This document shows positions 4,976 through 56,090 of a stretch of 64,000 bases of DNA, one piece after another. The stretch covers positions 36,703,194-36,767,193 of the forward strand of contig OV121086.1 in assembly GCA_921293015.1 (NCBI GenBank), given 5' to 3'. Positions within the stretch are counted from its first letter, which is position 1, and every line of letters starts with the position of its first letter. Below the pieces are notes generated by a model. It saw nothing but the letters and a program-made list of their open reading frames with translations, did no database searches and was not told the origin of the DNA. The DNA is from Phorcus lineatus. Its lineage: Eukaryota; Mollusca; Gastropoda; Trochida; Trochidae. The position numbers and the translations under genes were made by a program.

Positions 4976-5287
4976 CATTTGGTCATCTTTTCGGTCGTAC
5001 GCTTACTCACAGATTTTATGTAGTGACATTTCCACCTAATATTTAGTAAAACAATAAGCTTATACGCAATTTGATGATCTCTTCCCGGTAATATATACGC
5101 CCTGATCAAATCATCAACGGAATAACCACTTCAATGCCAAATTCCTTCGTGGTGTAATTGTTAAGTTCACTTGATCTAGTACTATGTATCCAACCTACGT
5201 TGGAACTGAAACATTTCGTAGTCTATCTTCATTTAGCCAGTGTGTAACGGCAAATCGAAGAAAATCATTTTAAACACAGCAATCGCG

Positions 5288-5625
5288 AGGAAGTATAGGT
5301 TTTAAGCAAATAATGCTACATTTCGGATCCAGTAAATGCAACAGAAGTGTCTGAATTGGTCTCGATGTATAGTGAAATAGTTCTCCCTCATTCTCGGATC
5401 GGCATGCAATCCCAATAAGGAAGTCTCTTTGATCCGAAATTATATATACCGAGGCCGTGAATTGTTTGTACTGTCGGATCCATTCGCTTTTAACGGTTTA
5501 CCGCTTCTCAAAATCTTACCATTTGACAGTGACTGACAGTATTAATAAAACTGCTGTTTCGTCATGCATTTCGTTAGAAGCCACACTTCGACTGGGAGTT
5601 TTGTTTGTAACAGTTATACAGTCAC
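5288..5625 (-). repeat. Duplicated segment copy 1 with a shared minus-strand reading frame
   Basis: The segment matches 22945-23255 over about 300 bases, including a TTTGATCCGAAATTAT motif and GATCGGCATGCAATCCC. On the minus strand both copies encode a related peptide, here GLHADPRMRENYFTIHRD followed by a YWIRN motif and then a stop. Sequence further toward 5625 also matches with small indels. The shared frame suggests a decayed coding exon or a transposon fragment. I do not recognise the protein. An AATG|GTAAG donor-like site lies near 5515 on the same strand. Confidence 0.45.
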
Positions 5626-17800: not shown

Positions 17801-18443
17801 TCGTGTCTATGCTATTTACTGTAATTGGGGTCACACCCGAAACTAACCCGACTGTATATGAAAATAATACAATGTAATGTCGACTGATCTGTCTATGTTA
17901 CTCACAAAATATACCCCCAGTGGTAATAAACAGATATAGAGAATTGATGGTTTTTTTGTATATTGATGTATGTCCTTGTAATGTTTGAAAATGTTTAACC
18001 TAAATATTAAACATTTTTAATGCTCGAAAGTTCGTCCTGTTTTCTTTAATACCTAAATACCTTGGGTGTGTACTATCATTTGTATACCAGTTTATATACA
18101 TGGCATATGAAGCGAAAACCATGAAAAATTATTAAGTTTTGAAAGACGTTTCATAACGTAGTTTTAACGTCGTTGTTCGTGCACATTTATCAATCTTGTA
18201 CCCAAACCTTTAACATATTTAAGAAATAATGAACATCAGAATTGTACCACTTTCACCATTGACAATCTACGGATGCGTGTAATGTTTAATAGGGAAAATT
18301 TGAGGCCCATTTCACGGAAAGGTAGATCACAATATGCCATCAGGCGTCTTTTGGCTTACGTTTAAGTTCTATTTCTATTACAGGTTATAAGGCGAACCCT
18401 CTCTCCACTCAGTCGAAATGATTTACCTTTAGCCTTTTTGGTG

Positions 18444-18858
18444 TAACGATTCATCGATAGTATCGATGTTTGCATCGTCTAATACGCGATACGAGTGCAT
18501 CGATTCAAAACACATTTAGACAATATATCAGGATCTTTATATCGTGAGGGTCCACGATACATCGATGTATCGCCATTAGTGGTCTAACGATTCATCGATA
18601 GTATCGATGTTTGCATCGTCTAATACGCGATACGAGTGCATCGATTCAAACACATTTAGACAATATATCAGGATCTTTATATCGTGAGGGTCCACGATAC
18701 ATCGATGTATCGCCATTAGTGGTCTAACGATTCATCGATAGTATCGATGTTTGCATCGTCTAATACGCGATACGAGTGCATCGATACAAAACACATTTAG
18801 ACAATATATCAGGATATTTATATCGTGAGGGTCCACGATACATCGATGTATCGCCATA
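18444..18858 (+). repeat. 140-bp tandem repeat, three units
   Basis: Three nearly identical units start TAACGATTCATCGATAG at 18444, 18585 and 18725. Each contains ATCGAT-rich inverted segments and ends CACGATACATCGATGTATCG. The unit ends resemble terminal inverted repeats, so the array may come from a short DNA transposon amplified in tandem. Related CGATAC-rich sequence continues to about 19240. Confidence 0.85.
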
Positions 18859-22437: not shown

Positions 22438-22944
22438 TCTTATGACAATGCCATTAACCGTCAATTACGTTAAGATGATGACGTTAAACGACGTTGTGAT
22501 GGGATGTGATGATGATGATGATGTATTGATGATGATGACGACGTTAATGTGTTGTACAGTATAAACGGAGTGCACCGCACATAATATTCCAAATATTGTT
22601 GTGTTGTTTATAGTACCCAGTGGAGTGTAGGAGAAATATAATTTCAGTTTGTGTAGGATATTTAGTTCCAAATGTGGAGGAAGACAAAAACAAGTTATAT
22701 AGTTTGTACTTTATCAAACATTTCCTGATGTAATGTCTTACTTTTACTTAGTTTATCTGGAAACACCAGTCTATCTCGTAATTACGATCTTTATTTAAAG
22801 ACAAACACAAATTTCAACTGTTGTTTCGTAGATTATAAGAACAATCATGTGACCAAGTGAAATCAGGTTGGGCATCTCTGTATGTGCGGATTGAGAGGCA
22901 AAGAACCCAGGTTGTAAACATATTGACAAATCGAAAGAAAATGA

Positions 22945-23255
22945 TTGAGAGGAGGAATACGTTTTGAGCAAATAATTCTTTATTTCGGATCCAGTAACGG
23001 TAAGAGAAGTGGCTGAATAGATCTCGATGTATAGTGAAATAGTTCTCCCGCTTACTCGGATCGGCATGCAATCCCCAACAAGGCGTCCCTTTGATCCGAA
23101 ATTATGAACTCGGCTTCTAGTTGTCTGTACTTTCGGATCCATGCGCTTCTATCCCTGCCAGTCGCATAGTGCCTGATAAATATCAACGTTATCGTTGTTG
23201 TCCATACATGAATTTTCGTTCGAAGCGAAGCTGTACCACGACTGGTAATTTTGGG
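22945..23255 (-). repeat. Duplicated segment copy 2 with a shared minus-strand reading frame
   Basis: Partner of 5288-5625. The minus-strand frame here reads GLHADPSKRENYFTIHRD, then YWIRNKELFAQN, and stays open to about 22814. The other copy stops earlier. Differences concentrate at positions that keep the peptide similar, which hints at former coding function. The family is not recognised. Confidence 0.45.
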
Positions 23256-23959
23256 TGTTTATTCGTTCAGAGGGACGAATAATGTTTGTGTGACTGTAAA
23301 TGCCACTTGCTGTACGTTACACACTAACCCGAGTTGCGTACATGTAGTAACGGTTTCATTTTGATCCAAACAGGATATAAAAACATTCTAAAAGTCGAAT
23401 AAAAAAAATCTCAGAAAACACAAAAATCTCAAAACCATTACCTGAATCAATGTCAGATTGTTAGAATTTCAAAAGAACACAGCATACATATGTCAGAAAT
23501 GTCATTGCTACAAGCTTCTGAATTGCCATAGCAATCAGATTTTGATAGAATTTGCAATATAATCGATATCATTACAATGAATGCCTTCATGATGTTTGAT
23601 GTTGAATCCATTTGAAATATTGATGCATACGAGATTACGTTTGATTCACACATCATAACATATGAAAAACTCTGAGGGTCATAGAAGTGTGCGCATCATT
23701 CATTGTAAACTGAACACCAAAGACATGTCACACCAATTTAAAATTCGAATATCAGACACAGTTATGTGCTCGGAGAAACTTGGTTCGCTGTGTTTTAACT
23801 TCGCATTTAGTTTAGTTTAGTATTTTGTGCTAAAATAATAGTCTTGAAAATTAACTGATAAATATGTCATCGCCAAATTTTCTTGGGTGAGGTCAATTGT
23901 CCTATTTTCAATCGTTTCAGTGGCATTCTAGAAGTTGGTAGTATAAGGACGACAATGAT

Positions 23960-27100: not shown

Positions 27101-27455
27101 CTAAGAGTGGTGCTACGACCGTGACAAGTAAACGTAGAAATCAATGTAAGATAATCTTAAAGTACATATTTTGTATCAGACTCAAAGGGAAAGTTAAGAT
27201 AATGCATTAAGCGACATTAATAATACATATAGTAAAAAAGGTGTTGCACCCCCTAAATAAAAGTTATTTCGGCACATACCAAACCCCCGTTTATGTTGTT
27301 TGTACCAATTAATCTGCTATATAGTAGGTTTAATTTTATAATGTTTTTGTAAGGATATTATTCATCAAAACGCGATAAGCTGCACGTGCACTTTGCTCTC
27401 CACGATCTCCGAAATATTCAGTACGAGTTTGTGATCAATTTCGATTATACAAACG
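24106..27455. other. Unassigned AT-rich region
   Basis: No exon with convincing splice sites or domain was seen. Two plus-strand frames (25813-26010 and 26085-26288) are short and unrecognised and are not called. A Tc1-like element begins at the right end. Confidence 0.35.
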
Positions 27456-28230
27456 TTGATACAAGTCGTTGAAGCCATTGTAACCCAGAATGCCGGTGTT
27501 AGAATGTCAGAAGCTGTCAAGTGGCAGATTATTGGTCTTCTTGGAGCGGGTCTTTCTTTCAAGGAAATTGCAAGAAGAACTGGACGTCATTACTCTACCA
27601 GAAGTCGTTTAGCCAGAAAACATGCACGAACCAATGACGTGAAGAATAGCACAACCTCAGACAGACCACGTATCACCTCCGTGAGAGAGGATAGATCATT
27701 GCTAAGGCTCATAAAAAGGTATCCGTTCGCCAACGGCTTCTACACCGTCTGTTCTGTCACCAAACTGACAGAAATCTACTCAAACCCGCTGGGTTGAAGT
27801 CCAAAAGAGTTATCAAACGACCGAAACTCAATAACTACCACAAGCAGATGTGTGTGGCATGGTGTAGAGAAAGACATGGGTGGATTTTAAGATCAAGGAA
27901 GAAGGGTCACTGATCAGGTGAAAACAGGTTCCTTCTGCACTCTGTGGATGGCAGGATCAGGATTTTGAGGCGTCAAGGGACAGCGTATGCACCACGGTAC
28001 ATCATTCCAACAATACCTTATGGCGGAGCATCTGTGTCGTATGGGGGTGCTTCTTGTTGGCTGCAAATTTGATCTTGTGACCTTTTTAGGTAACTTGACA
28101 GGAGATCGCTACATCCGGGAAGTTATTGAACATGTTGTCGTGCCCCATTTCGACAACCATACACTTGCAAAAAGACCTGTAATGCTAGACCGCATCGTTC
28201 ACGAGTTGTGAGGCAGGTATTTCAGAACAA
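27456..28230 (+). mobile_element. Tc1/mariner-like transposase pseudogene 2
   Basis: The N-terminal helix-turn-helix is clear: KWQIIGLLGAGLSFKEIARR followed by TGRHYSTRSRLARKH. The frame then shifts. Further on are SKRVIKRPKLNNYHK, a degenerate GGASVVYG block and YIREVIEHVVVPHFDNHTLA, which corresponds to the region just before the second catalytic Asp. The end is lost after about 28230. It belongs to a different subfamily from the element at 16.9 kb. Confidence 0.75.
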
Positions 28231-31263: not shown

Positions 31264-33147
31264 ATTCGCCTTTGCAAATATGCGGATATTCATTGTCATT
31301 CAACATAGGGTAATATTTTCGAATCGACCAATCAGAATCGAGGATACAACGAAGTCATGTTACAATACTTGTTAGCTAATATAAAGTACATATATGTGTC
31401 TAGTTTTGTCAAATCATTATGAAATAAGGTTCAGCATCATCTCTAGTGCTAGTGGCCCATTCCCACAGGGGAGAGGGGACTGCTGGGTTAAAATTGATAT
31501 CACGAATGGAAAGTTTTACGCCACTCAGAGACTTCTGCTATGATAACTCACTTATCCGATCATATGACACTTACAGAGGCAAATTTGAATCTTAGGTAGG
31601 TGTATTTGTACTCTTTAAAGAGTAAGGGTATTGTTTCAAAATTACAGCTATGTGCTCTTCAAATACTGGTTTACATGAATGCAAAAAATTATTCTGAAAT
31701 TATAAGTAATTGTTTTGATAATTTGCTAGACAAGAGTGTACCCAAATATCAACTGAAAAGACACTCTTCACTGGGAAGATTGGCTCCACCTATTCTGTGT
31801 AAACTATTCAGTCGTAAAGTCCCTTCCACACAAAAATAAGTACTCAAAAACCGAGTTCGCTCTTAAACTTCTAATAACTAACGGTCATGTTACAATATCG
31901 ATAAATAGTTGCGTTTGTAAAATTTCCGGGATTCATTGTTATTCAACACCCGCAAATTTAGTTTAAAACTGACGGCGTTATTTATCTTCTAATTAAAGGG
32001 TCAAAAGGCCAAACAGTGTCATAAATATGATGTATACATAGTTTGGGAATCCACAACAAACACCACATATATGGACCTAAAATGAAATAGAAATAGGAAA
32101 TTACATAAAGAGACTAATAAAGGCAAAAAAATAAAAAAGAGGAATCTTTTACCAAAAAATATTTTTATCGTAAATACAATATTATTCAAGTCAATCTAAT
32201 AAACATCTTCTACGAGCACATTCATTCACTTATTTGATTTTTGCCATGAAATCTCATTTTACTACATGGCATATGTGTAGATCTCTTATAGTAAAATTCC
32301 ACATAACCTTTGACCTCCCTGACTCCAGCGACCGTTAGAAGGTGAGGCACATTGGCTGATACGATCTCCCCCAGTCTGCCAGTAGCCAATCACTGCTCTT
32401 GGAGCCTTTATTGTTTACCCATGGGTAAATCAGGCCTGTTTTACTTTCCCCTTTAAAAATGTAACACCAGAAACAAGGAATCTACGAGTAAACATGAATT
32501 TATCCTTTAATAAGATTGAAAATATTAAATGTGATGCTCTGGGCGGCGATTGTCGATTTTTTTTACAGACATGATTCGATCCGGTAATAATTTCAATTCA
32601 TAACTGAGTTGGAAGGTCGAAAATCAAATTGGAACTAATCTTTTAACAAAATAGAGAAAAGTAAACTTTATTAGTTAGAAAACATTTATGGTTGACACCA
32701 ATGCCTTCGACAAAAAAAAACTTGAAATTATGAAAAATGAAACATTTAGCATGAAAACTAAAACAGCAACATGATGACGTCAAAGGACGTTTTAATGTTT
32801 CGTCAATATAATGTTTGTTTTGTTTATGTTGACAGCAGACAACGGGGTATATTTGCTTGCTTTGTTTTACAATTTACAGTATTACTAAAAATGTATTAAG
32901 TATCGAAATATACATCTGGAAATGTTTGGCACCCCTACTGGCGTTGAATTTCTGTAGCACAAAAGTGTTTGTGTTTAATTAACTTCGTAAATGTTGAGTG
33001 TTTTGTTTTTTGGATTAGTTGATTTATTGCACTTATTTTATTTCAAGCCTCTACCATATCTTGGTTCAAAAGAATCATTTCAATTTATGATATGTTTCTT
33101 TTGCTGTTGGGTTTATACTCAAAGTGTAAAAATTATTTGCGTTTCAG
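31262..33147. other. Intron 1 remainder of the lectin-like gene
   Basis: No extra exon was recognised. The block around 32770-32890 is shared with 10290-10440. An ORF at 31600-31839 is unrecognised and not called. Confidence 0.45.
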
Positions 33148-33381
33148 TTTTGGCGAGTTACAACATTGCCCTAAATAAGCCAGCTTACCAATCGACTGTT
33201 TTCGTAAAGAGTTACTCAACTGATCCTGGGAACATTGTTGATGGTAATCTTGAAAGAAATATAAATTTTGGAAGTTGCTCGGTGACGGAAAATGATGATC
33301 TGCACCCCTGGTGGATGGTTGATTTAGAAGAACCTTTCAAGATTCACAACATTACAGTCGTGAACCGTGGAGACACGAGCA
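33148..33381 (+). CDS. F5/8C-PAN protein, exon 2 (first half of the F5/8C domain)
   Basis: The exon follows GCGTTTCAG and ends before GTATGA in phase 1. It carries the first half of a fucolectin / F5/8 type C (discoidin-like) domain: YNIALNKPAYQST, NIVDGNLE, DLHPWWMVDLEEPFKIHN and ITVVNRGDTS. ALNKPA-QS, W-VDL and NRGD are the usual signposts of tachylectin-4/fucolectin domains, which bind fucose-containing glycans in secreted innate-immune lectins. The family's fucose-contact His/Arg residues cannot be assigned by eye, so sugar binding is an inference. Read past the donor, the frame continues to 33431 before a stop; the splice is preferred because phase and domain continue in exon 3. Confidence 0.8.
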
Positions 33382-33646
33382 GTATGAATATTTTGATAAA
33401 ATTATCAGTTTTCATGTTACACACTGGCTGATCCGGGGATAAGGATTGGGAGGTTTACTTGGGACACGGGATTCAAATCCTTCCTTTTAGGTTTTTTAAA
33501 GCGATGCTGCGTCCAGAGTAGAATTGAGACCTATCGTTATCGACCCGGGTCATAGTAGTTGCCGTATCGTGGTTCCTTAGAGGGAAGGTTAATCAGCCCA
33601 GTTCGATAACGATGAGTTTCATTTTTATTGTGGACACACACTCGCT

Positions 33647-34133
33647 TTAAAGTGACACAGAGTATGTTTCATAATTTTTAATGTGGCTTTAGTAGGAGCC
33701 TAAATACCTTGTGACTTGAGTTCAGTAAAAATCGCCTCCCTTTACTTGAATCTTTATCTGTAATATTCCAAAATAATGGTATATTCTTTTTTTCACTAAT
33801 AATCGGAGAACGGCCCTATTAATGTACAGTATTCGAAAGTATGTGTCCAGTTAACGTGTATATAAGTTGAATGACCTACGTAACACTATCATCCAATGTT
33901 TTTCTTTGTGTCTGCTGTAAATAGGTTTCCGAAATTACGTTTGAATCATTGGCGCGCACCACTGTCCGGTTTTCGATCAAAAAGCTCGACAGTTACCCGT
34001 TTATTGTCACTATACTGAACTGGTAAGTATTAGGATTCTCATTTTCTGAAACAACCATTGCTTTTTGATAAAATAACACAATTTGTCAAGTTTGACATAT
34101 TTGACTCCAGCAGCATACTCTGTGCCCCTTTAA
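33647..34133 (+). mobile_element. MITE family A, complete copy in intron 2
   Basis: About 487 bases from TTAAAGTGACACAGAGTATG to CATACTCTGTGCCCCTTTAA. The terminal inverted repeats are about 20 bases and TTAA is present at both ends. It has no coding capacity and is a good reference copy for the family. Confidence 0.8.
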
Positions 34134-35124
34134 GATTGAACGTAAAATTGATGAATCCATGCGTGTACCCCTCCATCCTTTTCAACAGGATCTGCCAATG
34201 TTTTATGTGTCACTTTTGAACGATTATAATATAAACGAGGGACAAATGATAAATATATAGTCTGAGATAATAGAGAAAATTCGAATCAAATAATTTATCA
34301 TAAACTTTGTCCTGAAAAGTTTACCATGTGACGAGCTCGAGGCGTTGATGGATATGTGTTTTCGGGGGTTATAAACACAGCGTAAAAATGTCTATATCAG
34401 AATCGAAATATCAATTGATCATATAGTTTTTTTCATTCCATTATAAAAATATCCCAAAATTGCTGAAAAGAAAAGGAAGGTCTCATGGGCCACTGATGTG
34501 ACGTAAAACCATATCGTTAGCTTTTTTCACCAACTTTCAACCAAGTTTATATTAGACAAATTTTAGAATTGTTGAAATATATTCTTTTTAAGTATTTTGA
34601 AAGAAATAAAACCTTATTATTGACCTTCTTTTAGATTATCGGTTAGTTATAATATCCTAAAAAATAAAAATTACCACAGATAGTCAGTTTTCCTGTTTAA
34701 ATCAAACAATATCAATTGTTTATAATTTCACTCGCATGATACAAAATCGTTCCTTTTTCTATCAAATTGACTTCAACATTGGTTCTTTCCTGGCCAAACC
34801 GTTTTCATATTGATGTTTTCTTTGATTGAGGCACTTTCTCTTCGTGTCCCAATTTGTGTTTTAGACATAATTTATTCAGTTGAATAGGGATTGGTTAACA
34901 AGCCATGTGGCTTATATCAATACCTTTCCGAAAATACATTTTCAAAACATTTCGCGAGTATGGCTTAAAGCAATCAACATTATAGAATGTACAAGTATAT
35001 TAAATACATTACAGACAATGATGAGAAGAATGTTTACGTAATGAATAATCTATTGAATGAATACCCTCAAGTCCCCTGTTTAACATCTTCATTACATATG
35101 CATACTTTTTAATTTCATGTTCAG
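34134..35124. other. Remainder of intron 2 of the lectin-like gene
   Basis: AT-rich. No exon or named repeat was recognised. It ends with the acceptor TTTCATGTTCAG. Confidence 0.5.
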
Positions 35125-35527: not shown

Positions 35528-36002
35528 TTAAAGTGACACAGAGTATGTTTCATCATGTTTTATATGGTTTTAGTTCAAACCAAAATAACATATGACCTAA
35601 GTTAATTTCAAATCGGCTCCAAAACTTACATCCTTTTCTCGAATTGCCAAAATTATGCTGTTTTCTTGTTTTCAATGAAAATCGGTAAACGGATCTATAT
35701 ATGTTAAAAAGTCGAAATTAATATGTACATAAGGTAAATGACCTGCGTGACACTCTAACCCTATGTTTGTCTTTGTGTTTGCTGTAAATAAATTGTCCAA
35801 ACTTGCGTTTGAGTCATATATGCCCGTGCTACTGTCCGGTTTTCAATCAAAATAAAGACTTTAACCTGTTTATTGTCACTATAATGACCTGATATGCATT
35901 AAGATTCTGATTTTCTGAAACAACAAATGTTACTCGATGAAATAACACCATTTATGTAGTTTGACATATGTGACTCCAGCAACATACTCTGTGGCCCTTT
36001 AA
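35528..36002 (+). mobile_element. MITE family A, complete copy in intron 3
   Basis: About 475 bases, beginning TTAAAGTGACACAGAGTATG and ending CATACTCTGTGGCCCTTTAA. Same family and orientation as 33647-34133. Confidence 0.8.
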
Positions 36003-36943
36003 CCTTGGTACGATGTATGCTTTTGGTCGGTATGAAAGGTCGTCCCGCTGTCCCGCTCATGTATCATGAGCAAGAGATTTGGCCTCGATATAGAACCAAC
36101 CACGTTTGGCGCCTTAAAAAGGCATATCTGTGAAAGTTGGTAATTTGGACATAGCAAGAGTTCCAATAACTCATGTCCAGTTTTCGATAAAAGCGTGTCA
36201 ACACACACATAAATAAATAATTTGATATTTTTTTTGTTTTGGGAACGTGGTATTTTAGTTGTATAAATGATACTTGTTTTATGTAGAAACAATATTTTCG
36301 CCATTGTCGATAATATTAGATAATGTGAAAAGGTAACTAGAAGTGATTTTTGCATTAATCAGATTTATCTGTCTTAACATGCATTTTTCGTAAGTTGACA
36401 TTTGAGAATGCCTTTTTTTTATCTAAGAACGTCATTAATTTCGTAATCTGAGTTTTTGTGTGATGTGTATAGTCTTCGATACGTGATGATACCTTCGAAA
36501 CCATTTGCAAATTAAAGATTAATATCTATTTACACATCTCAAAAATCGAATTGTTCAACAAAATGCTACATTTGGTCGCTCGTCTTTGCCTTCCTAATAA
36601 AGATTAACTCAATGCATCGCCAAATTGTCAAACGATGTTTAGAGTGGAAAGGGTGAGGCTAGGTCACACATCTTTCCTGATTGGCTTGGCGGCATAGGAA
36701 CGGCCGTTATTACCGGTCAACGTTAGGTCAATAGAATGACATGTTATTAAAGAGCCACTCCGTGATTTTCATAACATATTATTTACCTTTGGTACGAACC
36801 TAAATGTCATAGGTGGTGATATTAAACAAAACATCTTAACTTTTCATGTTCAAAAGACATATATATGACAAATACTTTTTCAGTGAAAATCTAAAAACAG
36901 CTTTATAAATGCACAGAGGTGTAGATATCACGTCCAATAAATA

Positions 36944-39972: not shown

Positions 39973-40639
39973 GAGGCTTTTCAATTCGCAGTGTCTATAT
40001 ACTCTTGATAAAGAAGAAATGTTTTATTCAGTGTTGTTTTTTAAATTTTTATGTTTAATATAATTGTATGCTTAACCAACATCATGTTTAGATGTTATTT
40101 TTCTTCCTAATGTATACCATAAACATCAGATTCAGTCATGGTATAATCTTGCACCTTGTTTCAAGTCGCTGCCTTGGTGCTCCAGTAAGTGTTCATCGCA
40201 TAACAGACATCCAATTCATTTACTCAAAATCGAATACAACCTCTGTACACCATATTTTTTAATTATAAAAGCAACACATCTCCGAGCCTGTTAATTGTAT
40301 TGACATCTCGTTAATTATTTAATTTTCTTCTTCAGTTTAACTTTCTCCATAGACCATTTAACTGTTTGACGAAATATTGCCTACACATAATAAAAAACAT
40401 ATATATTTATCCGTTTTGTTACCACTCAAATACAAGTTCCAGTGATCACTATCCATTCCACATCAAGTTTGCATCATGAATAAAAGAAAACAGTGTCCGT
40501 CACGCGTACAGGCTGTAAGCATCGTTGGATTGCTTTGCCTTGACTTTATATAGCTAAAACAGTTTAACGGCTTCCTGGTCCGCCATTGTGGATTTATTTA
40601 TTGGGTTAAGTATAAATTTTGTTACAAATGATGTCATTT
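39973..40639. other. Unassigned
   Basis: No exon or repeat family was recognised. Confidence 0.4.
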
Positions 40640-42564: not shown

Positions 42565-42801
42565 TTATCTTTTTGTTAGCCCTGAAAAGGGCTGTAAGAA
42601 TGTTGTGCTCTGAAATAGAGTTGCGTCCGGTTCCTCTACCTCGGCCTGTTTCTGTACGTCTGTGCGGTCTCCTTCGTTCCATCCTCGATCCGTCACCTCG
42701 TTCCCAGTAACAAGACTGCCAAAGCTAAAAGGTTTTAAAAAGGTAAAGAGGATATTATCTTGGATGACAAGAAAGTTTGCTTTTGATTTTTGAATATCCA
42801 T
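42565..42801 (-). CDS. Small ORF downstream of cassette gene A
   Basis: 78 codons starting 24 bases after the stop of the 42825-43646 gene, on the same strand. The ATG context is good (CAGGATGG, A at -3). The peptide is acidic in its second half (EGDRTDVQKQAEVEEPDA). CTTCTCTACCACAG just before it looks like a splice acceptor, so it may be a second cistron, a spliced exon or chance. It shows no similarity to the small ORF after cassette gene B. Confidence 0.3.
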   Translation of the reverse strand: MDIQKSKANFLVIQDNILFTFLKPFSFGSLVTGNEVTDRGWNEGDRTDVQKQAEVEEPDATLFQSTTFLQPFSGLTKR

Positions 42802-42824
42802 CCTGTGGTAGAGAAGATCGTGAG

Positions 42825-43646
42825 TTATTCAAGAGCTGCAACTGCCTGTACTAGATCGGTGTCCAGGTCCTTGGTGAAGGTGATGTAGCTGGCTCCCATG
42901 AATTTCAAGAAGTTTTTGGAGAACTTGAAGTAGATATCCCCGAAGCCCAGTTCTTCACGATTGATAAACCTTAGGATTTGGCCTTTTGGTACTTTGTGGT
43001 GAACGTCATAGCCTGTTTTAAGATTCTCTAGCTGTATTACATAGGGGCCTTTGGGGATTTGATCTTGAGGGAGTATGGTGGCTCTCCAAGTGCGATCTGG
43101 GGTGTAGTTCGAGATGGGATGGTTTAGTACCATACTTGATGCCGCCCCTAAGACAAGCAGGTCGTAGGTTTCGTTGTTGGTGGAAGAATTGTTAGCAGTG
43201 GTAGTGTGTTCCACGGCTTGTTGTTCAGGGGAGTCTTCGAGTTTCCTCTTGTTTTTCTGCTTCCTCGGAGCCGGGGGAGGAGATGGAATCGCTTCAGGGG
43301 CCAAGGTCGTCTCTGTCGGTAGTGTGGGAACCGGGATCGCTGGTGAAAGTGCCGTGGCTGGCGTCGAGGTCGCCGCTGGAGGTACATCAAGTGGTGTTTC
43401 TGGAGCTTTGGATGGTGTGACGACTGTGCAAGGAGATAGTACAAGGGAGTCCTGGGAGGGTTGAGCCATCCGTTTCGTCCCCTGTTCCTGTTCCCTGGTG
43501 GTGTCAAATACTATGGTAAACGTTTTTCTGCCTTCTTCCAACTGGTTGGTGATAAAGTATTCTTTCACCAGGTACTTGAGACAGTTGTCCAGGTCCAAGA
43601 GAAGATCCTCAGGTAGTTGGTCGATAAGAGTGCTAGTCTGCTTCAT
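42825..43646 (-). CDS. Cassette gene A: intronless 273-residue protein of unknown family
   Basis: An uninterrupted frame of 273 codons. The ATG at 43646 has A at -3. Layout: residues 10-52 form a conserved N-terminal region (LPEDLLLDLDNCLKYLV, TFTIVFDTTR), 65-128 are Pro/Ala/Thr-rich and probably disordered, a basic cluster RKQKNKRK at 128-135 could be a nuclear localisation signal, and 184-273 form a conserved C-terminal region (DRTWRAT, YVIQLEN, FKFSKNFLKFMGASYITF). The two ends align with the gene at 49807-50733, and so do about 220 bases upstream. Base composition looks clearly richer in G+C than the flanks. There is no signal peptide, membrane segment or recognisable enzyme motif. It could be a recently evolved cellular gene, a transposon-borne gene or an endogenised viral gene. 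The sequence does not decide. Confidence 0.65.
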   Translation of the reverse strand: MKQTSTLIDQLPEDLLLDLDNCLKYLVKEYFITNQLEEGRKTFTIVFDTTREQEQGTKRMAQPSQDSLVLSPCTVVTPSKAPETPLDVPPAATSTPATALSPAIPVPTLPTETTLAPEAIPSPPPAPRKQKNKRKLEDSPEQQAVEHTTTANNSSTNNETYDLLVLGAASSMVLNHPISNYTPDRTWRATILPQDQIPKGPYVIQLENLKTGYDVHHKVPKGQILRFINREELGFGDIYFKFSKNFLKFMGASYITFTKDLDTDLVQAVAALE

Positions 43647-43900
43647 CTTCGATGGGGAATGGTCTGTCTACACCGTTTCGTAGATCCTTTCTGCTCAACT
43701 GCAGTCAGTGAGATGAAGGTTGCATCTGGAGTCCGTGTTTAAATGGGGACAAACCTGCCAGTTCGCGTAACAATTTACTCTCAGCTTGCGATGACGTAAC
43801 CAGTAAGTCTGATAATTAACTGGCTTTGAGAACAAGTGTCTGTCACGGATAGGTGTGTCTTGTGTTGACTGTGCTGATAATTAGCTGACAATGCAGCGTG
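43647..43900 (-). promoter_or_regulatory. Upstream region of cassette gene A, shared with gene B
   Basis: Two blocks match the region before gene B in order and spacing. The near block (minus strand) has TTACGTCATCGCAAGCTGAG, which carries a CRE-like TGACGTAA. The far block has GTCAGCTAATTATCAGCACA. No TATA box is obvious. Confidence 0.5.
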
Positions 43901-44248
43901 TTAATACTGAAACTCTTCCTGATTGGGAAGTAATCACACCCTTTCATTGTCAATTTCCTATACATGCCCACTTACACTATTGTCCAGCCTTATCTAGAAC
44001 AACTTGTGACGAAAGTATATATCAACTTCACTTAGTTGTTATTTAAGTCTTATTAACAATGGACTTTATCTCCATAACGATCACTTGATGTAGCACATGG
44101 TTGCAAGCATGATATATATATATATTTAGAACTATGGGAAAATATCATTCATGACACCGATCAAATGAATATTGTCGAGTCCATTCAAAAGTCAAAGAAT
44201 TTAGCGTTTATATGAGTTACTGTATAACATGCTAGCGGCGTTCTACGT

Positions 44249-44335
44249 TTTGCCGCGCGGATCGGCATATCATTTGCGCGGAAAAAAGACGACGTTTGCG
44301 CGGAAGATTTTACTTCATTTGCGCGGATGCACTCA
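44249..44335 (+). promoter_or_regulatory. Cluster of TTTGCGCGGA motifs
   Basis: The motif TTTGCGCGGA or a close variant occurs three times, with a related TTTTGCCGCGCGGA before them, in about 80 bases of otherwise AT-rich sequence. It resembles the E2F core TTTSGCGC, but a decayed minisatellite is equally possible. Confidence 0.35.
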
Positions 44336-44378
44336 TGCGTAGTCACGTGCACTCACGCGTAGTTTTGTGATGGTTTGC

Positions 44379-44633
44379 TTAATTAATCCCCTGGATAACT
44401 ATATTAATATTACCCACGATAAGTAGTTGCTGAAAAGTCACAGTCATTAGAGAACAAATAAAAGGAAATCGCATTTCTTTTATTGGAGTGATTCTCTGAC
44501 CCATTTCGTTCAGGTATTCCATTTTGGTAAATTTTCCATCAACATATTTCTTGTACATTTTCATGGCAAAGTGTTCTCTCTCTTTACTTTGCGTGTCATT
44601 TGTGGGAGGTGAATTTTGTCGGTTTCCGAAAGT
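44379..44633 (-). CDS. Candidate exon of unknown function between the cassettes
   Basis: 84 codons without a stop, opening right after TAA at 44634. It is strongly protein-like in the middle: SKEREHFAMKMYKKYVDGK and MEYLNEMGQRITPIKEM, basic and amphipathic. A possible donor GTAATA follows near the end. No family is recognised and no acceptor is clear, so it may be an exon or a transposon relic. Confidence 0.3.
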   Translation of the reverse strand, partial: TFGNRQNSPPTNDTQSKEREHFAMKMYKKYVDGKFTKMEYLNEMGQRITPIKEMRFPFICSLMTVTFQQLLIVGNINIVIQGIN

Positions 44634-45341
44634 TTAAAATCCATTTTGATATATAACTTTTAAAACAAACATAAATAAGTAACAACGGTGACCTTATTAA
44701 ACATCAAATCTGACCACCCAGTAAACTGTGACCCGATGCTACTGACAATGTTTAGGAGGCTTATCGATCATACAAAAGTCAAGCCATAAGCAAGCCAACC
44801 GGGCTTGACTAATTAGCTTATCAAATCATCCAATGGCAGTCCAATGACCCGCGCAAATGAAACACAATGATCTTTCCAAAAATACGTAAACGCAGTGCGC
44901 CCCATGCTAGATAGTATAAGCTGAAGTGAAACAATTATAATTGATGCATTACATTTAAGTAGTGATATTTACAAAACCAAACTTTTTTGCTGATGTATGT
45001 TACATATACTTGAAGAATGGAACGATATCAAATTAATCATGAGTTTGCATAAAAAATGTTATTAGCATCCATTGTTTTATTGCAAGAAGATGATGCGATA
45101 CACTTCGGTCAGATAACCTGAATTTTATTCTCTATCGACTTGCATCTTCAATGTTTTATTCTTTCATTATTTGCTATCTTGTCCAAACGATACTTTATGA
45201 ATATTGTATAATAATATGAATAATAATAACAATAATTAAAATAATAATGATAATAATAAAACTAAGAAATGTTTTTATTCTGAAAATATTAATTTTGTTA
45301 CTACCTTTTTTTTCAAATATCATATCTATTATCAAACACAA

Positions 45342-45811
45342 GTTAAATTTTCATTCTCATGAATGTTGTTTGAGGCTTAAATACAGCCTAAATATCATAA
45401 GACCTTAGTTAACTTCAAATCGCCCATCAAAAGTTGAATCTTTATCTCTTAAATGCCAAATATATGACAAATTCCTATTGTTGGTTGTATATCAAAAACG
45501 ACTATATAACTGTTAAGAAGTCAAAATTCAGTATTCTATTTACATATATATTAGATTAATGACCTACTTAGCAAGACCAGCCTATATTTATCGTTGTGTC
45601 TGCTACAGATAAGCTTACAAAATTACGTCTGACCAATTTGCGCGCACCATTGTCCGGTTTTCGATCATAAATCTTGACCCTTTTTTCCTGTTTATTGTCA
45701 CTATGGTCACTGAGATGTTATCTTTCAGAAAATCACTATTTGAAGGTGAAATAACACCATTGTGGAAGTTTGACATATTTGACCCCAACAACATACTCTG
45801 TGCCCTTTTAA
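45342..45811 (+). mobile_element. MITE family A copy between the cassettes
   Basis: It aligns along its length with the reference copy at 33647 and ends CATACTCTGTGCCCTTTTAA. The left end is degraded. Confidence 0.7.
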
Positions 45812-46159
45812 CGAATATTTTTGTCACCAGTTTTCGTGGTAAAATATACACTAGCACAATAAGAATTTCTATTGTTGTTCTGATTTCCTAACACAAAATA
45901 ACAGTTTGAATTTACAATTCAGTTTATTGTAAATTATTTTCATACTTATGTTTAATAATTGTACATTGTAAACTTTTTCTCACTTGAGTTGTAACGATAG
46001 GGTGATAAAGCTTCATATTCCGATACATTAAATTGATATGAAGATGTGTATCACGATACATGACTGTCATGAATATTTACAATTAATTATAATACCGTTT
46101 ACACGTACGCCCTGGCCGTTCTGAAATTGTTAACTGTGATATGAACTATTTGTCTTTTT

Positions 46160-47060
46160 TAATTGGATCAGGCAAGTGCATTATTGGGTGTTAAGAGATC
46201 AACTTGTACTGCTATGATTTATGCTGAACTTGGGCGCTTTCCTTTAAAATGTAAAAGAATGTTTAATTTAGTAAAATTTTGGGTAAAATTGTTAGGAACT
46301 AATAATTGTATCCTAAGGGGCTATTATAATTATTTATACAATGAAGTTGAAACTCATTCTGTAAAAAATTGGGCTCATGAGGTTAAAAGTATCTTGTTTT
46401 CTATTGGTTATGCAGAAATATGGTATAAACAAGAATTACAACCTAATTTCTTGCCTGTAATAAAACAAAGAATTAATGACCAAGCTTTTCAATGTATTTT
46501 AAGCCAGATTTCTACCTCAAGAAAATGTATGATTTATAAGTATATCATTGAAGGTTGTACTCTGCAGTATTATTTAAGAAAACCTATTCCATTGATGTAT
46601 AGAAAGTATCTATCCAAATTCCGCCTGTCAGCTCATAACTCATCAATTGAATGTGGAAGATACAAAAATATAATTGCAAGTGAAAGAAAATGTATCCATT
46701 GTACATCTAATATTGAAGATGAGTATCATTTCATTTTAGTTTGCCCTTTATATCTAAATGTTCGACAACTTTATATTAAGCCTTATTACTGGAAAAATCC
46801 AAGTGTTTTCAAACTTACACAGTTACTTAGCATAAACAATGTTAAACAACTTTGCAATCTTGGCAAATTTTTGTTTAATGCATGCAACAAAAGAAATATG
46901 CATTTGAAATAAATATATGAATGTACATTCTCCATAAAAGATAAACTCTGAATTACCCGTCCACCTGTACCATGTTATTCAATATCTTCATGTAACCACC
47001 GATAAGTTGTTCAACTTCAGGTTAATAAAGTATTGAATTGAATTGAATTGAATTGAATTG
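46160..47060 (+). mobile_element. 5'-truncated LINE with intact ORF2 C-terminus and AATTG tail
   Basis: The frame from 46163 is open for 249 codons. It begins LLGVKRSTCTAMIYAELGRF (the region after the reverse transcriptase core) and contains the terminal Cys/His cluster CIHCTSNIEDEYHFILVCPL. It is followed by a 3' UTR and AATTG repeats at 47033-47060. The undamaged frame indicates a recent insertion. The 5' end is truncated just before 46160, so neither the RT catalytic motif nor the endonuclease is present. It is of the same broad type as 11640-12215 but not closely identical. Confidence 0.8.
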
Positions 47061-48460
47061 GTTATAGGGGTGAACTTTTTTATCGCCATTGTGCTAAACT
47101 GAAAGTAAGGCTTCGACGAGAAAATATTTTTGCCGAGATTGTTTCGGTTTTAGGCGGTGTTGGTATCCGATTTCTATGTTTGTGTAGCTCAATCGCTGAC
47201 ATGGTTTCCATTTCAGAAGAATAGTTGCCATTCGAGAGGCAATTTCTTCAAATTTTGAATATTTATTTTCCCATACGAATGATTTATGCTCAATTACAGC
47301 GTATTTTCCTTCTATTCCGCTGATTTATTCACCGTTTATATGGGAGGCCCGCAATCCATATTACTACAAATCTATATCAATAATGCAAACAAAAATACTT
47401 GTTTAAAGCATAAAAGGCCCGTTTTATGGTAACAATGAAAGTTCATCAACTGTTAATCAACATATTATCAAATCTGTACATGACTTCATTATTGAAACTT
47501 CGAGATATAATAGGTATAATACAATGTTCTTAAAAAAATGCCTTGCTATCATGATGACACTTCTGGTTTATGTCTTACCATGTTTACAAATTTATGTTTA
47601 ACGTTATATATTTGAGTTTTGTATGTATCAAGTATATGTATCTATCTTATGCCTTAACATAAGCACTGTGAGCTTCATGGCCAATCCCTTTCACAATGTA
47701 TATATGTATATGTATATTGTGAAATAAATATGTTAAAACAAAGCCCGTTTTAGCTTCTTCTATTTCAGGACATCTTCGCCATCCTGTTAACCTTGTTAAA
47801 CAATGTACAAGTAATGTCTGTCTATATATAGAGATTATTTATCTCTGACGAAATCATTAATGACTCAGAGTTACAATGGTACTAATATTTTGAACTCTGA
47901 AGTTGTTTTAATGGTTACATACACTGGTTTTACTCACAAACTGAACTTCCTTCACTGGGAAAAGAATGCATATATTATGTGCCAACCCTTGACATACAAA
48001 CATAGAAATATTTTATATAGAGAGAGAGACAGAGACAAAATATTTTATTTTTGTGTCACATGTTTGTAAAATATATTTATAATTATAAATGACTCTGTGA
48101 TATGTAAATATGTTTATAGCTATATACCTTATTTGCCTTTTACATGCCTTTTTTCCATTTTATATGTTCTCATCATCATTCTTAGCTGTATTTTATACAT
48201 TTTAATGGATATTTACATCTTTTTTAATTTATTTGTGGAAAATCGTTTCTCATAAATCGCTAAACGATTGGTTGTGTAAAACAAAAATAAAATATTCTGT
48301 CTACAAACAGAAAAATACAAAATTTAAACGAACTTTTTAACATCAAAGTCCTTGACCTTGTTTCGCGTAAACGGACACCAACCTCTGGATAAAATGGAAA
48401 GCCTCCACTAATGCTATTCCATTCGAATTCGTGTCATTGCACATATTATGTATAATTATA
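47061..48460. other. Unassigned spacer
   Basis: AT-rich with no exon or named repeat recognised. Short ORFs near 47860 are not supported. Confidence 0.4.
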
Positions 48461-49140
48461 GAAGAAGAAGAAGAAGAAGAAGAAGAAGAAGAAATATATT
48501 TTATTAACGTGTCACATGTCGTTATAAAAGCATTTTAAAGACATTTTTAAAATCAGTTTAAAAAAACAACAACGTCCAGCCTTATAGGCTTATGAGACAC
48601 AAGCATAATTCAAACATTAATATTTAAAACTTCACACACACGCAAGCACACACACACGCACCCACCCACATACACACGCGCACGCATACGCATAGATCAA
48701 CACAAATGCACAAATATCTATATGAAAGCAAAATAAAAATAGCACATTCAAAGAAACTACTAGTCAGTCGACATATTTCGTCTTTTATACATATTATAGA
48801 CGAGGGCGGTAAGGGATTTTACATAATGCTTGTTATTTAACAGAAACATCATTTTCTCCAAAGACGACATATATTGGAAAGGAGGATGAACAATATGTTA
48901 CACACATGCCAATCCATATGAATTATAAGAGAACAAAAATTAAATTATAATACGAAAAATATTGCAATATAATTACAAGTAAAAATCGTTTGAGCATGAA
49001 AGTTAAAGATTTTATAAACAAGAATATATGTACAGGCATTAAAATTGTATTATTTGTATCAACACCATCTTCTCCGTAAAATTTTAAAACAGGCTTTGGC
49101 ACACAACAAAGTTACATCAACATGTGTAAATAAGTTAAAC
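48461..49140 (-). mobile_element. LINE 3' end with TTC tail
   Basis: On the minus strand, a LINE C-terminal peptide VDVTLLCAKACFKILRRRW is followed by a 3' UTR and a terminal TTC repeat (48461-48493 on plus, read as GAA). About 250 bases at 48890-49140 align with 6078-6330. A CA-rich stretch lies at 48636-48690. Confidence 0.6.
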
Positions 49141-49527
49141 TATCAACAGCCACTGAAACTCCATTATTTAACCATTTTTTCATGTTTGTAAGAAAACATA
49201 GACAATTAAACCAAAACAAAGTGATATAGAGTTCGTTTCATTCAGCAGTTGCTCTATACCAGCCAAAATTCCGATTTTCTGTCAAATAAGCACTAAAATA
49301 TAATATAAGAATCCCGAAACGTAAAATATATGACAATTAACAGTTTTAAATGGATTCCAAATAAAGGACAGTATATGGGTATTTAACCGGAAGTAGACGT
49401 CGAAAATATGGTCGACAAATTATACCGATAGGCATTAAATGATAATTTACAGTTCTCACGGTAAAATATCATAAACATCTCTATGTCGCTCTTAGAGGTT
49501 CTGTCAACTAAATATTTTTTACATATT
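49141..49527. other. Spacer, partly LINE-derived
   Basis: The first part may continue the minus-strand LINE upstream of its C-terminus (degenerate peptide). The rest was not recognised. Confidence 0.35.
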
Positions 49528-49725
49528 TTATATTTTATAACCCATGATTTCAGGGTATGCATTTATTTTATATGCATCTTGCTTGTAGTCCTGCAAAGGG
49601 TAGTTAGGACAGTAAAACCATAAAGAATGATGGTTCTCGTTTCTTGCTTTGTCATAACGACGCTGTAGACCCTCCAGTATGTCCTTCAGGAGCACGACTT
49701 GCTCCCAGGCCTTCTTGAACTTCAT
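49528..49725 (-). CDS. Small ORF downstream of cassette gene B
   Basis: 65 codons starting 81 bases after the stop of the 49807-50733 gene, on the same strand, with G at -3. The N-terminal half (AWEQVVLLKDILEGLQRRYD) reads as an amphipathic helix or short coiled coil. The second half contains HSLWFYCPNYPLQDYKQD. It looks more protein-like than chance, but no family is recognised. It shares no sequence with the ORF after gene A. Confidence 0.35.
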   Translation of the reverse strand: MKFKKAWEQVVLLKDILEGLQRRYDKARNENHHSLWFYCPNYPLQDYKQDAYKINAYPEIMGYKI

Positions 49726-49806
49726 CTCGGTTCTAAGTTGTGGCTTGTGTGAGTTTGGGTTTGGACAAGCCCTTCAACGTTGCTGATTAGACGAGAGGGA
49801 TATTGT

Positions 49807-50733
49807 CTAAACGGAGGCCAGCAGGTCTTTGATGGCGCACAAAGAAGCGGAGTCGTTGTCTCTCACGTCGGTGTAGTTGATAAAGCCCGCTGCAAACTGG
49901 ACGAGAAACTTCCGCGAGAGCGGGAAAGTGAGGAAGCCTGTGCTGAAAGAACCAGAGGTGATGGCATGTTGGACCTGCTTGGTGGAGGTAATGTTGATCA
50001 CGGTGGTAGCTAAGCTTTTTCTGTTGACGAGTTCGAGGTGGAAGTTGCTGGAATGTTTTTGTTGGTGCTGGGGCGGGAGGGTTAATCGGTGAGTTTTGTC
50101 GGATGAGTAGACTTGTTGGTAGTCTTTGGGCTTGTGGATTTTGGCCAGGACGGCCAGGCTGTTGTTGACCTCATGGCGGTTTGGAGGTGTTAGTTGAGTC
50201 TCTTCGGCGTTTGAGGTTTGCAGTAGGATGGTCTCTTCTTCTTGGATGGCCTGGATGTCCAACTCATTGAGTGAATCGGACACGTCATGGACAACTATAG
50301 TGCGGTTCTCGGAGGCTTCCGTGGAGTAATCTCTATTCCTAGCGAAAATACTTCTCAAAGGATTAAACGATGCTGCGGGGATCGAGGGAGCGATGGGGAC
50401 ACAAGGAGCAGCAGGGACAGCTGGATGTTTGGGGACAGACTCAGTGGGGACGGCGGGAGCAGCATGAGGCTTCTTCATCTTCTTCTCTTTACTTGGGCAG
50501 CTTGGTGCAGAGACAGCAGATGATGACAGACCAGGGTTTTTAAAAGAGGTGTTGGTCTTCTGTAACTTCTGACCTTTCTTCCTGGACGTATCGAAGACTA
50601 TGGTGAAAGTGATCCTCGATCCGGAGAGGTTGGCCTGGAGATCGTAGGAATCTACCATGTATGCGAGGCAAGGACGGAGGGTGTCTAGCAGAGCCTTGGG
50701 CAGATATTCCGCGAGGGGGACGGAATAGGTCAT
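49807..50733 (-). CDS. Cassette gene B: intronless 308-residue paralogue of gene A
   Basis: An uninterrupted frame of 308 codons. The ATG at 50733 has the strong context CACCATGA. The N-terminal region (LPKALLDTLRPCLAYMVDSY, TFTIVFDTSR) and the C-terminal region (DKTHRLTLPPQ, FHLELVN, FPLSRKFLVQFAAGFINYT) align with gene A. The Pro/Ala-rich middle (about 72-122) does not. A basic cluster KEKKMKKPH at 82-90 could be a nuclear signal. An acidic, Gln/Glu-rich stretch at 155-180 is unique to this copy. G+C is higher than in the flanks. A second ATG 10 bases upstream opens a different frame of 67 codons (50743-50540), probably a shadow. The function is unknown. Confidence 0.65.
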   Translation of the reverse strand: MTYSVPLAEYLPKALLDTLRPCLAYMVDSYDLQANLSGSRITFTIVFDTSRKKGQKLQKTNTSFKNPGLSSSAVSAPSCPSKEKKMKKPHAAPAVPTESVPKHPAVPAAPCVPIAPSIPAASFNPLRSIFARNRDYSTEASENRTIVVHDVSDSLNELDIQAIQEEETILLQTSNAEETQLTPPNRHEVNNSLAVLAKIHKPKDYQQVYSSDKTHRLTLPPQHQQKHSSNFHLELVNRKSLATTVINITSTKQVQHAITSGSFSTGFLTFPLSRKFLVQFAAGFINYTDVRDNDSASLCAIKDLLASV

Positions 50734-50970
50734 GGTGACGCAATGCAGAAGCTTATTAGATGTTACGTGGTAAAACGACGTGAGACCTAATGGACAAGGT
50801 GTGGACGCCTCAGTTCAAATATGTAGTCGACCTGCCGTCTGAAATTAGAGTACACTCAACGCTTGCCTTGACGTACCCAATTAAATATAAATCACTTCGC
50901 TTGTAGAACAATTGACTTTCATGGATGGCTGACCATGGGGTTTGGCTGTGCTCACAATTAGCTGCCATAA
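50734..50970 (-). promoter_or_regulatory. Upstream region of cassette gene B, shared with gene A
   Basis: On the minus strand, the blocks GGCAGCTAATTGTGAGCACA and GGGTACGTCAAGGCAAGCGT match those before gene A in the same order, about 7 kb away. Conservation of non-coding sequence at this level suggests a shared promoter or a young duplication. Confidence 0.5.
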
Positions 50971-52833: not shown

Positions 52834-53327
52834 TTAAAACGAACGTACAGAGTTCAGTCAAACAATTTCCCTCGGATTATTTATATGCCAAACTTAATCA
52901 ATGGTGTCATTTGATCGCGAAGTGTAGACTGTTACCAAAAAGACACATTTTAAAGCCTATTGGTCTTTTACAGTGACAATATGAAGGTAGAACGTCGCAA
53001 TTATGATCGAAAACCGGACAGTAGCGCGCGTTAAATAGTCAAACGTAATTTTGGAGACTTACCTGAAACAGCCAGGAGGGCAGTTAGGACTTGATAGCGT
53101 TTGTTAGGTTATTTAACTAGTATCCATGTATATTGGACGGGATATCTACACCTCTGTGCATTTATAATTTTTATTTTTTAGATTTTCATGGAAAACCAGT
53201 ATTGTCATAAATATGTCTTTTGGACATGAAAAGTTAAGATGTTTTGAATTTGTATCACCAAATATGACATTTAGGTTCGTATCAAAGGTAAAGAATATGT
53301 TATGAAAATCACGAAGTGGCTCTTTAA
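52834..53327 (-). mobile_element. MITE family A copy, reverse orientation
   Basis: An uninterrupted relative of the split copy at 36747-38238. It ends GTGGCTCTTTAA. It provides the reference for the site of the nested insertion there. Confidence 0.75.
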
Positions 53328-54126: not shown

Positions 54127-55606
54127 GTAAATTAACCAACAACAGATCATGTAAAATGAATGTAACAGGCAAAATCACTTCGAACGGTCTGGTGCTACTA
54201 ATACTATTTCCGGGTTTTCAGCAATGCACTTTCGTTTCATATGTATGAATTTTCACTTGAAATAAGGTTTATAGTATGAATGTTAGTTTTATATGTCATT
54301 TATGATAAAGGTAAATCTTAATCTTATCTTATGCAGATCTATATCACTATATATACTTTGTCTTACGATTTACGTTGATTCACAAGCGTTTTATAGCCTA
54401 AAATATAAGTGTTAGGGGGTTCAAAGTAAAATTGACCATAAGATTGATAGCCTCCAAGGTTGTACCCCTCCCACCATTCTAAAGGTGGTAAAGTAACCCT
54501 TACCTATAATAGCCAATTAAATATTTCAGAAGATGCAATATTTCTAATATTATCGCACCTTTCTCCACAAATCTTAGAATTGGTATGCAACAATATAGAT
54601 CCGTATTTGAGTGCAATCCCCGTCGGCGATAGATACCTTTTGGAGATATCTTATACGAATATCACATATTCAGATACAGTTCTCGGAAGAGCTCACCAGA
54701 AGAAGATGCAGTACTAGTGTAGCAAGGGTTAAATAGCAAGTGGTTAAGGCTGGCTCAAGTAGGCCTAATTAATGCCTTTCGGGGGGAGTTTGATTTCACT
54801 GTGCATGTTTTCTCTCAAATTTTGAAGGCAGTTGAGTTTGATTTTAGTTTGGAAAAAAAGGCTTTCGAGTGTCAGATTCATGGACTCTGCCTCGGCCTCA
54901 TTGAGTCGTCCGTGTAACAATATTTTGAAAAAATAAAGCCTCCAAACCGGTGTACGAACTCGTTCTTGGGTTTCCAATTTACGTGATCTTCAAGTCAGGC
55001 ATGCGACCATATGGAATTGTTCCCGGACAGTTTAGCAGATGAAACTCCCTCACGGGTCGGGTTCGTATCCCGGTTGGGGTTTCATTCCTTGTGGGAGACA
55101 CTCGATCTTATATCAGACTTGACTGTGACTAAAAAGAACGATATGACAATATTTGGGGCGTGGTATATTTGTGTACACAGTAATCAATATAGCTCGTGTT
55201 GCAAGTGCATAAATGTGAAATAAAGGCATGTTCAAACAAGATTTATGTCGATCAGCTGTATTAGAACAAACGATAGTAACAGCTCAACTTGTTGTCGACA
55301 AAAAAACCTAGGGTTTCAGTTCGTCAAGTATATGTTTTACTGTCCCTTTCTCTAGGCTTCGATGGGCCCACCATTTTGTTAAATTTAAGGTAAAATGATG
55401 AAGAATGAGCTGTTTTTGTTCATCTATCTAACAAAATATTGATGATAAGTACTCCACATTTTAGAATAATAACTCGTTAGACTGATTAAAGGCACCGTAG
55501 TACATTTTTAGGGAAGTAACGAGATCTTACAAACAGAAAAATAATAATTATAAATTCAGATAATCGTTTAAAGCAATAAAACGAGTCCGTAACGAGCGTA
55601 TTTCCG
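54127..55606. other. Intron 1 of the TBK1-like gene, first part
   Basis: A plus-strand frame at 54460-54717 (SEDAIFLILSHLSPQILELV...) is protein-like but unrecognised and is not in phase with the kinase exons. GGTCGGGTTCGTATCCCGG at about 55056 looks like a tRNA T-arm or SINE fragment. Confidence 0.35.
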
Positions 55607-56090
55607 CTAAAAAGGGCACAGAGTATATGTTGTTGGAGTCAAATATGTCAAGTTTTATAAATGGTGTTATTTTATCGAGACGTAGTCATTGTTGATGAAA
55701 TTTACCATTCCAACCCTTATCCGTTCAGAGTAAGGACAATAAACAGGTTTTTGTTGTTATTTGTGATCGAAAACCGGACAGTGGCGCGCTCCTATGATTT
55801 AAACGTAATTTTTAGAAGTTATTTACAGCAAATACAAAGACAAACATTGGTTGATAGTGTTAGTTGGTCATTTAACTAATATTCATGTTGATTGGATGCA
55901 GAATTTTTAAAGATGTAAATGAGCGTTTTTGTGTTACCATTGATAATAAGAAAATAACAATGGTGCCATTTTTTATTGAAAAAGGTGCAAGTTTATAAGG
56001 AAGATATTTGAACTTACGTCAAGAAAGACAGCATTTTGGTTCTTATTAAGTCACAAAAACAATTTATGAATCTTACACCGTGCACCTTAA
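55607..56090 (-). mobile_element. MITE family A copy in the kinase intron
   Basis: Reverse orientation, from AAAGGGCACAGAGTAT to GTGCACCTTAA. About 480 bases, and the middle aligns with 33647-34133. Confidence 0.7.

Follow-up and report, generated by a model that had tools for sequence, protein, structure and literature searches.

The genome of Phorcus lineatus contains, within a stretch of 64,000 nucleotides (contig OV121086.1 of assembly GCA_921293015.1, positions 36,703,194 to 36,767,193; hereafter the window), two homologous genes which share a block of upstream DNA, and this upstream DNA is more alike between the two copies than is their coding DNA. Both genes are on the minus strand, with 7,087 base pairs (bp) between their start codons: copy 1 (42825..43646) is an open reading frame (ORF) of 273 amino acids (aa) running from ATG to TAA, and copy 2 (49807..50733) is an ORF of 308 aa running from ATG to TAG. 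The two proteins are identical at 78/295 columns in BLASTP (26%, E=6e-15 in this one comparison) and show 27% identity in the MAFFT alignment. The open length of both ORFs exceeds chance (280 and 335 codons from stop to stop, versus at most 228 and 213 when the respective gene regions were dinucleotide-shuffled 500 times), and the 1-kb bins holding the genes, with 0.484 and 0.492, have the two highest G+C contents of the 64 in the window, followed by a bin with 0.460. A preliminary description of this DNA, made from the letters alone, had pointed out a same-strand pair 7.1 kb apart and richer in G+C than its surroundings, and both observations hold; its statement that the genes lack introns applies to the open frames, beyond which a single-exon transcript stays a prediction. 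No third copy was found in the window with tblastn, hmmsearch or nhmmer, and a single hmmsearch row, which aligned 14 residues to the minus strand at 40219-40290 with E=0.23, was judged to be chance.

The most telling feature of the pair, absent from the preliminary description, is the upstream block, which is located at 43775..43890 for copy 1 (columns 24-140 of the MAFFT alignment) and at 50852..50967 for its counterpart in copy 2, both on the minus strand and with coordinates counted by hand. Its core is identical between the copies at 78 of 117 alignment columns. The block is followed by a putative TATA-like box, ATTTAAA in copy 1 (43738..43744) and ATTTGAA in copy 2 (50814..50820), both on the minus strand and with their 5' ends 98 and 87 bases upstream of the ATG, respectively. 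Aligned over their full length of about 750 bases, the 5' flanks scored 672, whereas the highest value among 200 shuffles was 629. When the comparison was restricted to the 254 (copy 1) and 257 (copy 2) bases before the ATG and the scoring made stricter, the pair scored 59, compared to background maxima of 28 and 26 for the copy 1 and copy 2 queries, respectively, in 1,713 windows taken from the rest of the 64 kb. Under the same stricter scoring, the coding DNA of the two copies reached 25 and their downstream DNA 22, both at background level. The upstream block was not found elsewhere in the window with hmmsearch or nhmmer.

In both copies the motifs within this region follow each other in the order CAGCTAATT, AGCACAG, TTGTTCT, TACGTCA (which we take to hold the core of a CREB/ATF-type bZIP site), GCAAGC, GGCAGGT and the TATA-like ATTTRAA, with spacings from 5' end to 5' end of 12/40/37/9/30/15 in copy 1 and 12/41/36/9/30/16 in copy 2; as the motifs were picked from the alignment, their order is the same evidence as the alignment score and no second proof. 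The better preservation of the upstream DNA than of the coding DNA suggests that the two genes are switched on together, and the best reading of the upstream similarity is a shared regulation which would have been copied with the gene as DNA. Since the block precedes the TATA-like site, it would be absent from the messenger RNA, and this points to a duplication at the DNA level. Homologous neighbouring genes with a common upstream region, as expected of co-regulated tandem paralogues, are found here as far as sequence can tell. Two other roles for the block were considered and set aside: as a structured RNA, its folding was no better than that of shuffles on either strand (z from -0.79 to 1.08), and there was no Rfam match in the window at the gathering threshold, while a reading as coding exon was not supported by the alignment differences, as read by eye.

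Divergence and architecture of the two proteins

The two proteins differ strongly in how well their parts have been kept. The N-terminal conserved region (residues 1-51 in both copies; 43494..43646 in copy 1 and 50581..50733 in copy 2, minus strand as for all parts) is 45% identical, and the C-terminal conserved region (residues 180-273 at 42828..43109 in copy 1, residues 209-308 at 49810..50109 in copy 2) is 28% identical. Between them lies a linker (43110..43493 in copy 1, where it is Pro/Ala/Thr-rich, and 50110..50580 in copy 2), in which Pro and Ala make up 27% of the residues in copy 1 and 22% in copy 2, and which contains a basic cluster, RKQKNKRK at residues 128-135 of copy 1 and KEKKMKK at residues 82-88 of copy 2. 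The low-confidence structure model of copy 1 has a helix plus beta-hairpin in the N-terminal region and an alpha/beta arrangement in the C-terminal region; the models of both proteins are poor, with a mean predicted local distance difference test (pLDDT) of 45.6 for copy 1 and 33.7 for copy 2. The conserved ends around a Pro/Ala-rich linker with a basic cluster, as described beforehand, were thus recovered, and both the alignment and the substitution rates support conservation at the two ends of the protein and fast change in its linker.

At the DNA level, 16 of the 23 residues identical between the copies in the first 51 are encoded by different codons, and codon positions 1, 2 and 3 of this block are identical at 27/51, 34/51 and 17/51, respectively. 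According to the Nei-Gojobori method, the proportions of synonymous differences are 0.715 in the N-terminal block, 0.833 in the C-terminal region and 0.783 in the linker, with nonsynonymous divergence (dN) of 0.62, 0.87 and 1.06 in the same order, which fits the strongest constraint on the N-terminal end, followed by the C-terminal end, and the weakest on the linker. For synonymous divergence (dS), the N-terminal block gives a value of about 2.3, while no finite value is obtained for the C-terminal region and linker. The dN/dS comparison proposed in the preliminary description is therefore only indicative, with 0.62 vs about 2.3 in the N-terminal block. As silent sites are near saturation and the protein ends are kept, the duplication is an old one and, judging from this pattern of substitution, both genes have been maintained as proteins after it. 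Synonymous divergence at or near saturation rules out a recent duplication or young gene, and together with the third positions contradicts the earlier suggestion of a young orphan.

The preliminary description also had each gene followed by a short ORF, making up a two-ORF cassette. These are an ORF of 78 aa after copy 1 (42565..42801) and an ORF of 65 aa after copy 2 (49528..49725), both on the minus strand, and they are indeed mutually unrelated, with no visible similarity. The downstream flanks of the two copies align with a score of 723, which is within the range of 200 shuffles (mean 699, maximum 806), no Pfam match was found for the frame of either downstream ORF, and ORFs starting with ATG and of at least 65 aa are common in the window (44, counting both genes and both short ORFs). 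The second cistron was rejected on the flanks and on the frequency of such frames, leaving the cassette or bicistronic unit unsupported; the short ORFs are probably chance reading frames and not parts of the genes.

Relatives and alternative origins

The two proteins and their ends were compared with several collections, as the preliminary description had proposed in the form of a profile search and structure prediction, and this gave neither a family nor a significant fold match. Neither the proteins nor their ends matched any Pfam family up to E=10, although HMMER filters may hide very remote matches; PHROGs contained no relative (weak rows at E=0.035 and 0.32), nor did NCBIfam (one weak row at E=0.15). 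PDB sequences gave no rows for copy 1, the two-sequence profile or the N-terminal profile, three rows for the two-sequence C-terminal profile (the best being eL22 with E=0.33), and best values of E=0.65 and 1.1, with unrelated names, when each C-terminal region was used singly. Prokaryote genomes, queried with the two-sequence alignment, yielded no relative, there was no match in phages for copy 2, and viral contigs contained no confirmed relative in five scans which rely on short exact peptide patterns and may miss remote relatives. Foldseek against viral models gave nothing at E<=0.001 for the copy 1 model (best 0.07), the other fold searches with this poor model, the only one used, gave nothing significant, and no family was outstanding among those listed in VIA-align. 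No literature on such a gene pair was recognised from titles and abstract openings. The earlier statement that the genes match no known family thus stands for prokaryotic, viral, domain and PDB collections; as the collections searched are poor in eukaryotes, the lack of a match is no evidence that the family is new.

We give roughly an even chance to the explanation that these are anciently duplicated tandem genes with a common type of promoter, encoding a nuclear adaptor with two ends and a linker. The pair would consist of two tandem genes with single-exon frames, derived from an ancient duplication in which the promoter was copied with the gene as DNA. In front of each gene there would be a compact promoter of one and the same type, whose regulatory sites form an array some 240 to 100 bases ahead of the ATG, succeeded by the TATA-like box and a short 5' leader. 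The protein would have a small domain at its N-terminal end and another domain at its C-terminal end, joined by a disordered linker rich in Pro, Ala, Ser and Thr, the basic cluster in the linker is probably nuclear-targeting, and the most likely role would be that of a nuclear adaptor bridging two partners. Both copies would follow a single expression programme, with their linkers left to diverge and expression control being the more constrained trait, and the genes, instead of belonging to a live element, would be cellular or domesticated. More tentatively, and with distinctly less confidence, we propose an undescribed family of animal nuclear adaptors, perhaps a domesticated selfish element, in which, ever since an ancient tandem duplication, conservation has been stricter for a cis-regulatory module than for the coding DNA, the timing or place of expression being constrained and the linker being free. 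Several points weigh against the duplicated-gene explanation: the whole upstream alignment is identical at just 134/273 columns; the motifs were chosen post hoc from the alignment and are candidate sites by their sequence alone, the window containing 9 occurrences of TACGTCA and 21 of TTGTTCT; saturation of dS makes dN/dS unreliable; the poor models leave the domain reading dependent mainly on sequence; and a wide repetition of the unit in the genome would make a mobile element likelier.

Such an element is the chief rival, although we regard it as rather unlikely. The ORFs and the DNA before them would then stem from a mobile element family, as its first ORF (gag-like or ORF1-like) and 5' control region, present as two remnants or as insertions of one element, with the rest lost. 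This would agree with a compact orphan protein of nucleic-acid-protein-like composition with a basic linker, with the retention of a 5' control region alongside the ORF, and with apparent retrotransposon debris on the opposite strand in the DNA that separates the copies (46163-46912; its tandem ATTGA tail is at 47032-47060), which may derive from a long interspersed nuclear element and had no better Pfam match than one at E=0.1. Similar N-terminal sequences, ending in FTIRF-like strands, may occur in invertebrate retroelement proteins. Mollusc ORF1s are described as very divergent in a paper on gastropod elements (PMC11203168), which would also agree with such an origin. The lack of any Pfam family for either protein counts against a mobile element, as does the absence, beside either gene and on the same strand, of a reverse transcriptase or transposase frame of at least 110 aa; minus-strand frames of that length between 23149 and 64000 were limited to those overlapping the genes and one at 35999-36358 (119 aa), a picture which a decayed or lost ORF2 would also give. 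There are, moreover, just two copies in the window without common repeat termini around them, the similarity ending near the upstream block with nothing downstream, and both frames are intact despite saturating synonymous divergence. Quite improbable, in our view, is the endogenisation of viral genes, for example of a DNA virus or a negative-strand RNA virus, with later duplication. Single open frames with a G+C content above that of the surroundings would fit this, as would a two-domain protein with a disordered linker, a putative likeness to viral phosphoproteins. Of the phosphoprotein-like protein suggested beforehand, the two kept ends and the linker hold, but there was no relative by sequence in the scans of viral contigs, no phage match for copy 2 and no significant fold relative with the poor model, and an insertion derived from an RNA virus would not be expected to share an upstream control block. 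That the pair belongs to a rapidly evolving known cellular family, for which the Pfam profile is too narrow to detect it, seems to us very improbable.

The existence of the pair is confirmed, and it deserves a second look on account of its upstream block: if upheld in other species, this would offer a clear example of paralogues whose regulatory DNA has outlasted their coding DNA, in an orphan family missed by profile libraries. The two divergent sequences together with the putative promoter block would then form a seed for finding the family in invertebrate genomes, and with that a means of asking whether it is a domesticated element.

Other features of the window

Elsewhere in the window, the plus-strand frame at 27435-27797 has helix-turn-helix matches (HTH_23, E=7.2e-05, below the Pfam cut-off, and HTH_38, E=1.8e-04) and may be a fragment of a Tc1/mariner-type transposase, and the plus-strand frame at 32991-33431 contains an F5/8 type C-like galactose-binding domain (F5_F8_type_C_2, Pfam E=1.7e-08) and is probably an exon of a lectin-like gene. 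This F5/8 type C-like sequence and the repeats of the window would be in character with an animal genome, perhaps that of a mollusc. A minus-strand open frame of 290 aa (1555-2427) looks beta-propeller-like by eye and had no Pfam match up to E=10 as a stop-to-stop frame. Repeated DNA includes a tandem array of three 140-bp units with 98% matches (18439-18857), two related repeat copies in opposite orientation which are 55-71% identical in translation (5263-5533 and 22795-23258), and a diverged dispersed repeat family identified by translated comparison (33884-34134, 35751-36033, 45571-45887, 52901-53101, 55596-55876 and others).

Comparison with known systems

The likeness to ribosomal protein eL22 is confined to the C-terminal region, where there is weak profile similarity around FSK..LK....Y (E=0.33), whereas neither C-terminal region has a Pfam match and single sequences gave no match to eL22; the similarity, seen with a two-sequence profile only, is probably chance. 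With the P phosphoproteins of the Mononegavirales, the pair has in common two conserved ends and a disordered linker, but it differs in having no sequence or significant fold relative in viral collections, and no N- or L-like neighbour among the ORFs listed. ORF1 or gag-like proteins of retrotransposons without long terminal repeats are of a similar size range, with a basic disordered stretch and a 5' control region beside the ORF; in contrast to these, there is here no same-strand ORF2 of at least 110 aa, and no RRM, CCHC or esterase match in Pfam. Tandem lineage-specific paralogues with conserved proximal promoters have the same combination of same-strand neighbours, homologous proteins, a common upstream block and no family match, while the Phorcus lineatus pair differs from them in that its upstream DNA is more alike than its coding DNA (59 vs 25).

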